From assembly GCA_016858145.1 (NCBI GenBank), contig JAEHOE010000021.1, positions 496,001 through 560,000 of the forward strand: DNA of 64,000 nucleotides, given 5' to 3'. Numbering within the stretch: position 1 is the first letter of the stretch; each line of letters opens with the position of its first letter. The notes beneath the pieces were generated by a model that was not told the origin of the DNA, did no database searches, and was given only the letters and a program-made list of their open reading frames with translations. The position numbers and the translations under genes were made by a program. Origin of the DNA: Edaphochlamys debaryana (lineage: Eukaryota; Chlorophyta; Chlorophyceae; Chlamydomonadales). This document shows, piece after piece, positions 723 through 6,880 of this stretch.

Positions 723-2403
723 CGCGCATGTATTGTCAGCGGATATACGGTACTTGAAGGCAGGCGGCGGCGGCGGGGCGCGGCCCCAAATGCGCCGGGT
801 TGAGCCTCCGTGCACCGTGCGCGTGACGCCCCTGTGTCAGTCGTCTGCCGTCAACGCAGTAGGGCGTGCACGCCGTTATGTGCGGTATCGCATGTGCCGA
901 TGAGCGTCAGGTGCTGGCCGGGCCGGGCTTGGCAGCACGCTTTCGAGCATGCATGGAGCCTCGCGTGATGAACCACTGCTGGCGTTCACACCCTACCTAT
1001 CTAGAGTAGCCAGCCCGACGCACGCGGCGTGGCCGGGACCTCAGACGTTTGCTGTGCTGCGGTGCGATGGTTGCTGCGCCAGAGACTCCCCTCGCCTCGG
1101 AGACCTTCGTTGTGGCATTTAGCGAGCGAGGTACCGAGGTAGCCGAGGTGGGTGGCGGGCGGTCTCTCACTGCATAATGGACGCTTGCAAATCCCAATCA
1201 ATTGGGGCATCAGTCTCGACGGCTACGCTACCTAGCTGTTTGGGGAGGGCGGAGTGGCCCCGCCAGATCCTCATCAGGGAGAGGGGTGGGCTCGGGGATA
1301 GGCCTATCCTAGGACTGCAAGGGTGCTCCTGCGGGCGGGCAAGATGCGGAGACGGCGGATGTATGCAGGCCGACTCCAGGCAGCCTTCACTCCGTACATT
1401 TCACTCCGTACGCGCGATGCTCGGGCTTCAACCCATACCTCCATAACCATACATCATACGTACACGACCTTCTGCGACGGTACGCATCGCCGGGCTAAGT
1501 AAGCAGCGTCGAGACAAAGAAACAAAGAACCTCACGCCAGGCATCGAGCTTTCAGAAGCACCCAGAGACAGGTCTCCCGCATCATGCTTGCGTGGCTTGG
1601 CTCCGCACTTGCAAGGGCGGAGGCCACACATGAGAGTAACGCAGACATGCGCGGCGACTACGCTTGCGAGTTGCCGACCCAGTGGCTTTCAACAGTGGCG
1701 CTGGACTGCTGCTGCTTGCTATGGTTGCGGCCTATATGTCCGTGATGGTATCAGGTGGGCTTGCAGCCAAGCGGCGGGGTCGGACCCGCGGTTCCGCCGC
1801 ACGGCTGATAACTTGAGGGAGGCGGGAGCCCATAGATGACGGAGACATGAATTGGGACAGCCTCTGACGTAGCAATTCGGGTGGTCGGCGGACATGTCAG
1901 GAGGAAAGTCGCTCGAACAATTTGAAACTGTACAGTTTTCACATGTGAGGTTGAAGACGCAACATAGAAGGCGCTCTGCACGCTTGCTAGCGACAGAAGG
2001 CGCTTCAAGCGACTGCGGTTTCGACACGCACGCTCGCGACCCGCTCGGCCCCACATCGATCCCCGCCCCACTACTCAGCAGAGTTACGGTGCGCAGGTTA
2101 TGGCAGCGAGGAGCCTGGGCAGCCGACCCGCTAGACCCGCCGCTGCGCGCTGTATCAGCGATCAAGCCAACGCACAGCGATCCTCGTTATTATCCTCGTC
2201 ATCAACCCGTCGTCCATCCCCGCGGCCTAAACCGTGCAGTTTCACCGCCGTAACCGTTCCCGCCGCCGACCGCCATCTGCCAAGGGCCGGGGCATGTGTG
2301 TTGGGGTCAGCCAGCGGTTGGAGTTACATGTAGAGAACAGCGAGGGGATCCCTCTTTCTCCGGAGAGCTTGGGCATTTAGGCTGGGTCCAGCCGCTGCGC
2401 CAG
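723..2403. other. gap; possible signal-peptide exon for the next gene
   Basis: No convincing complete gene. The only protein-like piece is about 1682-1754 (+), reading AFNSGAGLLLLAMVAAYMSV. It follows a possible acceptor (gacccag) and ends at a donor-like tcag|gtgggc in phase 1. That phase is exactly what the first recognised exon of the next gene (2404) needs. A hydrophobic leader would also fit a surface protein. No matching ATG exon could be fixed, so the 5' end of that gene stays open. Confidence 0.25.
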
Positions 2404-5400
2404 AATGCTACAGCCACCCCGACTTCACGTTCCTCAAGTGGCAGGACGGCCAGCCGGTGCACGAGCTGGGCCCCGGCAGCGTGGGCGCGTGCCTCGCCAA
2501 CTGCAGCTGCAGGGGCTTCAACACGGACTCAGGTGGGTGGTGGCCTGCTGGCAAGGGCGAGGGAGGTACCGGTAGTAGTGTTGAGGGAGGCCTGGCTCGT
2601 ACGGCAGAGTGCGGCATGCAGGGGCGCAGGTTGGGTTGCGTAACCTGACGTTCACAGTCACACGTCCCGACCGCCATGGTGCCCCCTGTGCAGAGTAAGA
2701 CTGGTGTGGGACGTTAAGATGCAGCGCGGAGGAGTGGGGTAATCGGCTGAGAGGAGGGCGGGGTCGGTGGGAATGGGGTAAAGGAAGAAAGGGGTCTGTC
2801 CTGACATTGGTCTAAGCGGACAGGATGCATATATCGGCTGTCTCCTCCGACGGCCTGCCTCCAACGCCTTCAGTCTTTGATACCACCCCGTTCACTCCAC
2901 CTATCATTGCACGCCGCCACGTCCCACCCGCAGGATGTTCTCCAACGTCAGCGCCCCGGTTGCCGCTCCCTACTTCGATTGGCACCCCTGCGCCGGCCTC
3001 TACGTGCGGAACGCCAGCTGTGTGCCAAGCCCACCGAGACCCCCAGCCCCCCCTTTCCCACCCCCGCGCCCGTCCCCGCCTACGCCAGTGCCCCCCTCGC
3101 CTCCCAGTCCCTCTCCACAAGTGTCCTCGCCCCTCCCGCCCAAGCCACCCAGCCCGCCCTCGCCCGCCCTGAACGCGCCGCCACGGCCGCCAAGCCCCCG
3201 GCCCCCTATCCCCCGGCCGCCGCCACTGCCCCCCTACCTGCCCTGGTCGCCCCGCCCGCCCAGTCCTCCGCCTCGACCCCCCGTCCCGCCCAGCCCTCCT
3301 CCCCGTCCACCCTTCGTGCCTTGGCCGCCGAGGCCGCCGCCGAGGCCCCCCTTCATGCCGTTCCCCCCGAGGCCGCCGCCCCAGCCCCCCAGCCCCCCTA
3401 GGCGCCCGAGTGAGCTGGGAGGGTTCGATGGAAGGCACGTCTACCGTGTACCCGGATCCCCATTGGCTGTGGTGACTGCTGGTGGCGTAATATGTATGTG
3501 TGTCCGTGCCCCACCTTTCCTGCCCGCTGCACATACAGGCATGTCCAACTGGGCGTGGATCAGGGCGCCCGTGTACGCGTCATCGCTCGCCTCTGTGCCC
3601 GAGTGGTGCGGGGACGTGTGCGCCCCCTCCAACCTGGTGGACGGAGACACCACCCTGCGGTGGACGCACTCGGCGGAGGGAGACCTCACGCCCTGGTGAG
3701 GGGGGAGCGAGGGCGGGGGCAGGGCGGGCCGGCAGGGGCAGGATTAGGCGCAAGTGATCGCAGCAGGACCTGCTGCTGCCAGCCAAAGGTACTGATGACA
3801 CGGCTTGGCACTGCATGCTGGATTGCGCTTTCGTTCCTGCCTCATGCCCGCTTCACTTGGGCCCTCGGCGATCCATGCGCCCTTGCGTGCTTCCTGCAGG
3901 GTTTCCCTCGACCTGGGCTTGCGCGTCGCTGTGGCACGTGTGGTCATCTACAACAGGTCCGTACATGCAGTGCGTGCGCACGCACGGCCCCGCACGGAAG
4001 GAAGTATGACCGACGAGCGCACGAGCACTTGCTCAGCTTCATGCGAACCTGTTTCCGTCCCCTCCGCAGGCCGTACGGCTACGGCTCCAGGCTGCGTAAC
4101 GCCGAGCTGCGCATTGGGGACAGCCCCGTCAACCGCACCGGTGCGGACGTGGCGGCCAACCCGCTGGTGTGGAAGCAGAACTTCACGGCGACAGACGGCC
4201 AGGTCATCACCGTGTACGCTGGGGACGCGCAGGGGCGCTGGGTGAGCCTCCAGAACTTCAACCCCGTGCCGCCGGGCAGCGGGGCCTACTACCTGCATGT
4301 GGCGGAGGTGCAGGTGTTTGGGGAGGCGGTGCCGGGTGAGCGGGGCCGTCATTACGGGGGATACTGGTGAGGGGTGCGTGGCTGCTGTGGAACAGAGCTG
4401 GGGCGGCAGGGCATGCAGGGTAGGCGGGATAGAGATGAACCACACCGCACCACTGCATGCCATCTTAGCGCGTGTACCGATGGTGTACCGCACCCCGGTC
4501 ATGGCCAGATTTGTAGCTTTCATGCGTCGTTATTAGCGGGTCCCTCCTTCATCCCGCCCTGCATTATTTGTTGCTTCCCAAACATTGCCTGTGTGCCATG
4601 CCATACACCCTCTCCGCCGCCCCCGCCCCGTGCAGTGTGCTACAGCCACCCCGACTTCACGTTCCTCAAGTGGAAGGACGGCCAGCCGGTGCGCGAGTTG
4701 GGCCCCGGCAGCGTGTACGAGTGCCTCGCCAACTGCAGCTGCAGGGGCTTCAACACCGACTCAGGTGCGTGGGTGGCAAGGGGAGGGAGCAAATGTTGGG
4801 TTGATCTGCTGGACTTTTGTTCGTTGCTTGAGTGAGTTGATATGGCGTCAAGTCAAGTCACACTGCGGTCTGAGATCTCTAGGTTGAGCACCACAAACGA
4901 CAACCGTATGCCCCCTTTCCCATGCTCTGCAGAGTAAGCCTGCTCACGCCGCCGGACGTGTACCGTAGCAGAGAGCGAGGCCCCACCGCGTTGTGTGCTT
5001 CAGAGTTCAGGATGGATGTGCCGTGGCATGTAGTCCTCCGCATTGCATAGTCTCTTGCCCTCGCTCAGATTCTCATTACACTCCCGCAGGATGTTCTCCA
5101 ACGTCAGCGCCCCGATTGCCGCTCCCTACTTTGAGTGGCACCCGTGCGCCGGCCTCTACGTGCGGAGCGCCAGCTGTGTACCAAGCCCAGCGAGGCCCCC
5201 AGCTCCCCCCTCGCCGTCTCCACGGCCGCAGCCAGTGCCCCCGTCGCCTCCCAGCCCCTCTCCACGGCCTCCCTGGCCCGCGCCGCCACAGCCTCCCAGC
5301 CCCCCCTCGCCTCCCCCCTCCCCGGCGCCTCCCAAGCCGCCAAGCCCTCCTCAGCCTCCCAGCCCCTCTCCACCACCCCCTTCCCCGGCACCTCCAAAGC

Positions 5401-6880
5401 CGCCCAGCCCTCCTCAGCCTCCCAGCCCCTCTCCACCACCTCCTTCCCCGGCACCTCCCAAGCCACCCAGCCCTCCTCAGCCTCCCAGCCCCTTTCCGCC
5501 ACCTCCTTCCCCGGCACCTCCCAAGCCACCCAGCCCTCCTCAGCCTCCCAGCCCCTTTCCGCCACCTCCTTCCCCGGCACCTCCCAAGCCACCCAGCCCT
5601 CCTCAGCCTCCCAGCCCCTCTCCACCACCCCCTTCCCCGGCACCTCCCAAGCCACCCAGCCCTCCTCAGCCTCCCAGCCCCGCTCCACCACCACCCTCCC
5701 CGGCACCTCCCAAGCCACCCAGCCCTCCTCAGCCTCCCAGCCCCTTTCCGCCACCTCCTTCCCCGGCACCTCCAAAGCCGCCGAGCCCTCCTTTGCCTCC
5801 CAGCCCCGCTCCACCACCCCCCTCCCCGGCACCTCCAAAGCCGCCGAGCCCTCCTTTGCCTCCCAGCCCCGCTCCACCACCACCCTCCCCGGCACCTCCA
5901 AAGCCGCCCAGCCCTCCTCAGCCCCCCAGCCCCTCTCCGCCACCTCCTTCCCCGGCACCTCCGAAGCCGCCCGGCCCTCCTCTGCCTCCCAGCCCCTCTC
6001 CGCCATCCCCCTCACCAACACCGCCCGGCACACCGCCACCCTCCCCGCCGGATGTGCCTCCGCCGCCGCTTCCAGACAAGCCGCCGCCGCCCCCGCCGGA
6101 TGTGCCTCCTCCGCCGCCGCCAGAGAGGCCGCCGCCGCCCCCGCCGGATGTGCCTCCACCTCCGCCGCCAGACATGCCGCCGCCGCCCCCGCCGGTTGTG
6201 CCTCCACCTCCGCCGCCAGACATGCCGCCGCCGCCCCCGCCGGATGTGCCTCCGCCGCCGCCGCCAGACATGCCGCCGCCGCCCCCGCCGGATGTGCCTC
6301 CACCTCCGCCGCCAGACATGCCGCCGCCGCCCCCGCCGGATGTGCCTCCGCCGCCGCCGTCAGACATGCCGCCGCCGCCCCCGCCGGATGTGCCTCCACC
6401 TCCGCCGCCAGACATGCCGCCGCCGCCCCCGCCGGATGTGCCTCCGCCGCCGCCGCCAGACATGCCGCCGCCGCCCCTCCCAGATGCAGGAGGTGAGCTA
6501 AAGGCTTGCCAGACGAGTTATGTACTGCCCACACGCACCTGAGTCCCTATTGTTTGTGTTCGTTTAAAGTGACAGGAAGCTTCCTGAAGGCGGCGCTTCC
6601 CGCTGAAGACCCAGAGGAGGCGGCCATCGATGGCGATGCGGGACTCAGGCCTCAAGCCGAACGGACGGGTGACGGGGAGAGCGCTCTAGGCGAGAACCCC
6701 AGCCCCAGACGAGATGGCACGAGCAACCAGAGTGGCGGCACCAACGCTGCTTGGCCTGCCGGCCTCATTGTGGGTGTTGCCGTTGGCGCGGCGGTGGCGG
6801 CCATAGCCGCAGCAGCGGTTGGTATGGCGTTGTGGTGGAGGGCAAGGGGCGCAGGGGCACGTGTGGCTCCTGGGTTCTAG
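2404..6880 (+). CDS. cell-surface protein: Cys module - F5/8C - Cys module - Pro-rich stalk - TM
   Basis: Exons: 2404-2532, 2694 (1 nt), 2934-3409, 3539-3695, 3900-3956, 4070-4335, 4636-4764, 4933 (1 nt), 5090-6492, about 6576-6880; at least 973 aa, 5' end unresolved. Two near-identical modules begin CYSHPDFTFLKW, contain CLANCSCRGFNTDS and end with a WHPCAGLYV..SCVP piece; they look PAN/apple-like but I am not sure of the family. Between them, exons 3539-4335 form an F5/8-type-C fold (WVSLDLG, VARVVIYNR, AELRIGDS, GRWVSLQNF, LHVAEVQVFG), a sugar/ligand-binding type. After module 2 comes a stalk of about 430 aa: eleven 21-aa PPSP-type repeats, then DVPPPPPPDMPP repeats, typical of O-glycosylated hydroxyproline-rich proteins. 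The last exon has one hydrophobic helix (GLIVGVAVGAAVAAIAAAAVG) followed by WRARG, predicting a single-pass protein with the ligand domains outside. Confidence 0.8.
2694..2694 (+). other. one-nucleotide exon (A), Cys module 1
   Basis: The flanking exons are out of phase: 2404-2532 ends ..gac tca g, and 2934 starts g atg ttc. One base is missing from the joined codon. The intron contains tgtgcag|a|gtaaga, a strong acceptor directly followed by one A and a strong donor. Inclusion gives GAG (Glu) and restores the Pro-rich frame. The same arrangement occurs at 4933. Confidence 0.7.
4933..4933 (+). other. one-nucleotide exon (A), Cys module 2
   Basis: Same phase problem and same solution as at 2694: ctctgcag|a|gtaagc lies between 4636-4764 (ends phase 1) and 5090 (needs phase 2). 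Outside this core the two introns are mostly unlike each other, so conservation of cag-a-gtaag argues for function. Confidence 0.7.
5316..6010 (+). repeat. 63-bp coding tandem repeat (PPSP stalk)
   Basis: About eleven copies of a 63-bp unit, each encoding 21 residues around APPKPPSPPQPPSP. Copies differ mainly at one Ser/Phe/Ala position and at Gln/Leu. High copy similarity suggests recent expansion. Confidence 0.85.
6034..6486 (+). repeat. 48-bp coding tandem repeat (DVPPPPPPDMPPPPPP)
   Basis: Roughly nine copies of a 16-residue unit alternating Asp-Val and Asp-Met between runs of six prolines. It directly follows the PPSP block within the same exon. Confidence 0.8.

Follow-up and report, generated by a model that had tools for sequence, protein, structure and literature searches.

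The question raised by this locus is whether two single adenines in a gene of Edaphochlamys debaryana, each lying between a splice acceptor and a splice donor, are exons in their own right. The window is the whole stretch of 64 kb that was analyzed (C21:496001-560000), and the genome searched comprised 141.9 Mb in 502 contigs; the available text of PMC8226300 gives 142.14 Mb and 527 contigs for the published assembly of this alga. The gene extends on the + strand from at least 2404 to 6880 and encodes a probable surface protein. With both one-base exons included, two Cys modules, each followed by a Pro-rich stalk, stand on either side of an F5/8 type C domain; the second stalk is the longer one, and after it come a hydrophobic C-terminal stretch and a stop codon. 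The two modules are labeled W1 and W2, and those of a sister gene described below P1 and P2. The features, in window positions and with a slash at the splice borders, are the following:

2404..2532, + strand: module 1 exon A, after the acceptor CAG/AATGC; codons CYSHPDF...CRGFNTDS from 2406; ends in phase 1 with G
2533..2693, + strand: module 1 intron a, 161 nt, GTGGGT...GTGCAG
2694..2694, + strand: module 1 predicted one-nucleotide exon, A, putative middle base of GAG (Glu)
2695..2933, + strand: module 1 intron b, 239 nt, GTAAGA...CCGCAG
2934..3409, + strand: module 1 exon B and Pro-rich stalk 1, G/MFSNVSAPV...ASC
3539..4335, + strand: F5/8 type C (discoidin-like) domain, identified by Pfam, in three exons (3539-3695, 3900-3956, and 4070-4335)
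4636..4764, + strand: module 2 exon A; codons V/CYSHPDF...CRGFNTDS from 4638; ends in phase 1
4765..4932, + strand: module 2 intron a, 168 nt, GTGCGT...CTGCAG
4933..4933, + strand: module 2 predicted one-nucleotide exon, A, putative middle base of GAG (Glu)
4934..5089, + strand: module 2 intron b, 156 nt, GTAAGC...CCGCAG
5090..6492, + strand: module 2 exon B and the long Pro-rich stalk 2
6576..6880, + strand: last exon with the hydrophobic stretch, which by eye looks like a membrane anchor, and the stop TAG

Exactly one base (modulo 3) is missing between the flanking exons of both modules, as the initial annotation had proposed: exon A ends TCA/G and exon B begins G/ATG, the module 1 borders being TCA G/GTGGGT at 2532 and CGCAG/G ATG at 2934. 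The same one-base shortfall is found in all four modules (W1, W2, P1, and P2). Both adenines lie where that annotation had placed them, within CAGAGTAAG at 2691-2699 and 4930-4938, and a scan of both strands of the 64-kb window returned these two sites only, both on the + strand. Adding the A gives the claimed GAG codon and restores the frame, which reads on into the Pro-rich stalk and then through the F5/8 domain and module 2; with both A's in place it stays open for 973 codons, through the probable membrane anchor, up to the stop. Omitting A 2694 brings a stop at codon 122, inside stalk 1, and omitting A 4933 brings one at codon 876. The predicted spliced junction reads AACACSGACTCA-GAG-ATGTTC in the window gene and ACGGAAGCA-GAG-ATGTTC in the sister gene. 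Frames, borders, conservation, and the need for one base are established by sequence, and from them we infer the splicing itself: the single A's of CAG-A-GTAAG are very probably real one-nucleotide exons that restore the frame in both modules.

The stop that follows skipping of the first A, also found inside stalk 1 of the sister gene (at codon 238, counted within the part of its frame that was examined), would suit a different arrangement in which the A is used in part of the transcripts, and skipping and inclusion form a switch between a truncated and an anchored protein. Transcripts of VPS55 with and without a 1-nt exon are described for several plants in the accessible part of PMC8831610. 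Nevertheless, the sequence examined shows no sign of regulation, and skipping may just cause RNA decay, so that we regard such a switch as unlikely.

The initial annotation described a strong acceptor and a strong donor around each A. An AG-N-GT arrangement with good sites is indeed present, but the donor loses rank once its exon-side bases count: among all AGs of the four introns the micro acceptor ranks 3/29, 2/25, 5/57, and 1/39, and among all GTs, under a simple score that includes exon-side bases, the micro donor ranks 9/34, 4/28, 10/45, and 10/30. GTAAG is the donor after all four one-base exons and at none of the 17 other introns of the two genes that were examined. Two special kinds of splice element were considered and discarded. 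A zero-base recursive splice site (AG/GT) does not describe the locus, where one base separates acceptor and donor, and neither does a spliceosomal twintron: acceptor and donor are complete in both introns, so there is no split site, and two consecutive introns suffice.

A protein search of the genome identified the sister gene on the same contig, 400 kb away (C21:98.5-101.7 kb), for which no annotated protein was found in our protein search. It holds two copies of the Cys module, in the locus L010 (C21:94000-103999), and in each of them CAG-A-GTAAG lies between the two exons, with the A at C21:98779 and C21:101298. The conservation initially claimed for a pair of modules thus holds, while the number becomes a set of four. 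Intron a measures 159-168 nt across the four copies; intron b varies between 156 and 583 nt, the upper value belonging to P1, where a run of tggagggggg units, seen by eye at about L010 4820-5045, enlarges it. Between the sister-gene copies there is a single synonymous difference in the 72 module codons and another in the 159 F5/8 codons, and the module introns of P1 and P2 resemble each other at the level of shuffled sequences (0.611 vs. 0.609 and 0.621 vs. 0.594). The initial description of introns that otherwise differ around a preserved core is therefore correct for the core in all four copies and, for the divergence, clearest between P1 and P2; W1 and P1 introns are alike elsewhere too (intron a identity 0.78 vs. 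0.61 shuffled).

Some side observations concern the sister gene itself. The exons of its two units (L010 3490-7623) are near-identical, as are the F5/8 introns by eye, but outside the core its module introns show no likeness; this pattern may reflect patchy gene conversion or intron replacement. Its F5/8 units (L010 3907 and 6417) seem to use a GC-AG intron, AG/GCGCGT, where the window gene has AG/GTCCGT.

Once the first 12 and last 20 bases of the four introns are trimmed, GCAGAGTAAG is the only 10-mer common to all of them. YAG-N-GTRAG occurs exactly once in each, and in the 64-kb window three times on the + strand and four times on the - strand, two of these seven being the module 1 and module 2 sites. 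Dinucleotide shuffles of one such intron contain this pattern in 3.8-5.5% of cases, all four together in 0 of 5000 trials, and a word of 10 is shared across four shuffled introns in 0 of 2000 (maximum 8), although it is important to note that shuffle figures overstate independence because the four introns are related by duplication; taken in pairs, the introns give a weaker signal, the longest shared words having 12 bases in P1/P2 (matched by 42/500 shuffles), 11 in W1/W2 (15/500), 12 in W2/P2 (3/500), and 14 in W1/P1 (2/500). Conservation of the one-base exon is a comparison within one species, among four copies of shared ancestry. Genome-wide, CAGAGTAAG is unremarkable, with 193 and 141 occurrences per strand vs. 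136 and 151 for the reversed control. A second pair of neighboring CAGAGTAAG sites, on the contig C11 (633240 and 638059), was dismissed, since the sequence there is repetitive and nothing around it resembles this Cys module. A mobile origin of the introns was likewise set aside, as those of W1 and W2 match only themselves genome-wide at E 0.001; this search is insensitive, as it failed to recover the intron of the sister gene that aligns with module 1 in pairwise BLAST, and diverged intron copies may exist.

Homologous domains encoded by a single exon indicate how many codons belong at the joint. The predicted module aligns with such a domain on C11 over 48 residues, ungapped across the joint (42%, E 2.5e-5), and an independent profile was built from two uninterrupted C11 domains alone. 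For W1, W2, P1, and P2, respectively, this profile gives 35.0, 37.3, 33.2, and 33.2 bits with one codon added, 30.6, 33.1, 29.1, and 29.1 bits with none, and 30.8, 33.2, 29.2, and 29.2 bits with two, so that it peaks at one inserted codon in all modules, about 4 bits above none or two; these are three distinct tests and not four, because P1 and P2 encode the same module. The directly joined products of W1, W2, and P1 reach 11.4, 14.3, and 12.8 bits. The profile matches 33 places in 21 loci (E up to 1, some of them weak), 30 of which span the joint: 26 are contiguous, 3 are gapped only after a conserved K, and 1 is uninterrupted by eye. With no interruption at the joint among these 30 places, the intron pair looks private to the small family formed by the window and sister genes. 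In the profile output one related domain, on C100, seemed to be interrupted at the joint, but it proved on reading to lack an intron at that place. We also observed a genome family of PAN-like Cys domains with the motif C.GFN..GW.K, in L032-L052 and other loci, several of them in tandem and often below Pfam detection.

Another conceivable source of an open frame is one long intron with another donor or acceptor, CAG-A-GTAAG being a relic. Each of the four copies does have at least one private single-intron route that keeps the frame. Under strict rules (donor GTNNG, acceptor YAG; extra exons of 3k+1 bases, under 160 nt), there are 4 single-intron options in W1, 8 in W2, 3 in P1, and 1 in P2, yet none is common to all four; extra-exon options number 5, 1, 1, and 15 in the same order, and only the single A is common to the four. 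A second candidate in W1, CAG-A-GTGCGG (A at 2608), equally good for the frame, was rejected, as it is absent from the other three introns. The private single-intron options that were scored with the C11 profile fall below the one-base exon: W2 donor +4 gives 34.5 bits vs. 37.3 and is the strongest competitor scored, P1 donor +16 gives 24.9 vs. 33.2, P2 acceptor -16 gives 24.7 vs. 33.2, and W1 donor +76 gives 21.8 vs. 35.0. Loose rules, which admit any GT/GC donor and any AG close to the borders, yield 12 single-intron options common to the four copies. However, all 12 use donors 44-95 nt inside exon A and delete the conserved Cys motif, CLANCSCRGFNTDS or more; the profile scores, which cover donor -44 in W1 and W2 and donor -95 in W1, are 11.5, 11.3, and 11.9 bits. 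Nor do these options account for the conservation of exon A right up to its CAG end. The edges of both exons are sharp: mean pairwise identity is 0.82 over the last 10 bases of exon A vs. 0.38 over intron bases 11-20, and exon B opens with 10 bases at 1.0 vs. 0.42 for the bases 11-20 before it. Under the rules tried, the single A is the only frame-restoring option common to the four copies that keeps both exons whole, and a single long intron appears quite improbable.

It might also be that the frame is truly broken, the modules being decaying pseudogene segments or the products of assembly errors. Nothing upstream of the window gene matches the 5' part of the sister gene, and the annotated model of the window gene is disordered, both of which would suit such decay. 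Against it, the frames are open on either side of the gap, the same one-base offset occurs in four places, and the exons show signs of selection: between the window and sister genes, dN is 0.008 and dS 0.25 in the F5/8 domain, and dN is 0.06-0.07 and dS 0.20-0.35 in the Cys module (W vs. P pairs). W1 and W2 show a weak sign of constraint (dN 0.048, dS 0.094). Variable sites by codon position are 2, 2, and 11 in exon B, and 4, 4, and 4, without bias, in exon A, whose frame is therefore deduced from its in-frame connection to the F5/8 exon (W2, P1, and P2) and from the C..C.C.GFNT homology. We find a broken frame scarcely credible, the least probable of the readings discussed here. The one-nucleotide exons, in turn, are supported by their presence in all four copies, by the conserved exon edges, and by homologues that need one codon.

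The disorder of the annotated model may have its own explanation. The public model HYH03_005915 breaks at both predicted one-base exons, a point in their favor: it begins at the ATG of module 1 exon B and omits stalk 1, and in module 2 it links exon A with an acceptor that ends at 5231, so that stalk 2 is for the most part read in the wrong frame. Each Cys module loses half its length. The joins used instead count against the one-base exons, though none of them restores the domain. According to the accessible part of PMC8226300, which describes stranded RNA-seq of 7.4-8.2 Gb for each of three species including this alga, the E. debaryana annotation was made by BRAKER with STAR-mapped RNA-seq, and we infer that HYH03_005915 belongs to that annotation and hence carries RNA-seq hints. 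The available text of PMC8831610 states that STAR maps reads over a 1-nt exon correctly only when that exon is annotated; a failure of the model would thus be expected and says little against the exon.

The F5/8 type C domain lies above the Pfam cut-offs for PF22633 (41.9 bits, cut-off 27.8, E 1.6e-10) and PF00754 (33.2 bits, cut-off 28.2, E 6.4e-8). The Cys modules are PAN/apple-like: W1 on its own is without a Pfam match, the C11 domain pair matches PAN_2 at E 0.011, below the cut-off, and PAN_4 matches 3 of 14 aligned related domains (best E 7e-4). A profile search of solved structures found the glycosyltransferase R655 (E 8e-6), with factor XI as a weak match (E 0.3). We looked for an exon upstream of 2404 and for the start codon of the window gene and found neither. 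Homology to the sister gene ends sharply at 2406, and a search of C21:488000-497999 at E 0.001 (low-complexity filtered) gave nothing that matches the upstream part of the sister gene; the window gene may have been rearranged at its 5' end. The case for module 1 is slightly weaker because of that missing upstream exon; if the window gene truly starts at module 1 exon B, only the second one-base exon matters there.

The initial annotation called such exons extremely rare. The kind is already known (PMC4674806, PMC8831610, PMC12940212, and PMC5033589), and several within one family are still unusual. As far as the accessible portions of these papers describe them, the known cases share some traits with ours and differ in others. 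In Arabidopsis APC11 (PMC4674806), one A likewise stands between AG and GT, is required by the frame, and was missed by annotation, whereas there is one per gene, in a different gene of a land plant, proven by cDNA and by mutants, among them replacement of the A by T and its deletion, where our case is drawn from sequence. The plant VPS55 microexon of 1 nt (PMC8831610) also has a strong conserved donor (GTRAGT; here GTAAG) and is absent from annotations, but it occurs once per gene, in land plants, and is alternative in some of them. Fusarium CYP621A (PMC12940212), called the second example in that paper, resembles our genes in its one-base phase mismatch, its conserved candidate, and a length set by an uninterrupted relative; it differs in having G instead of A, one such exon per gene, orthologues in many species, and SRA reads. 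Candida transcripts (PMC5033589) similarly have one base between two introns, whose order of removal is discussed there; these are snoRNA hosts, unlike the window, where no Rfam family reaches its cut-off in 2400-5200. The 1-bp exon of placozoan mitochondrial cox1 (PMC5436844, available part) is one base long too, but it is mitochondrial, with trans-splicing introns, and not nuclear spliceosomal. Annotations of some species, three plants included, contain 1-bp exons without experimental proof, according to the accessible text of PMC3064661.

Within the open-access literature searched, no chlorophyte was seen to have a single-nucleotide exon, and no gene to have two. The ten-species screen of PMC8831610 covered C. 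reinhardtii but, as the available text indicates, did not take it into the clustering; an unlisted algal 1-nt exon may exist in that screen. In searches against proteins, the matches were three from E. debaryana, including that of the window gene, and a weak one to a frog F5/8 protein, with no orthologue elsewhere; this absence is weak evidence, because the candidates covered were limited to 0.55-1.75 times the query length. The exons of the window and sister genes would join a known kind; their unusual side is that a chlorophyte transcript would carry two of them and the family four.

The proposed splicing can be set out as follows. The coding sequence of the Cys module would be cut twice, the cuts one base apart: intron a would end in CAG, one A would remain as an exon, and intron b would begin with GTAAG. 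Removal of both introns would join G-A-G and keep the frame, and either order of removal would yield GAG. A likely route is intron definition, with the two introns removed in succession, by analogy with the proposal for APC11 in the available part of PMC4674806. Since exon A ends in CAG in all four copies, the donor context CAGA/GTAAG is the same before and after the removal of intron a. As a more speculative thought, to which we give a low probability, the ten-base core GCAGAGTAAG may be a self-contained splice element that outlives the turnover of the surrounding introns, given the near-identical exons of P1 and P2 and the little that their module introns have in common besides it. The need to pass through two one-base exons in every transcript might then act as a checkpoint, admitting only fully spliced RNA to the anchored surface protein.

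One-base exons silently wreck gene models, as they very probably do in HYH03_005915. With four copies, differing introns, and two exons in series, this family offers a natural test of the spliceosome on an exon without room for exon definition and, if confirmed, would add a chlorophyte alga to the organisms with one-base exons.
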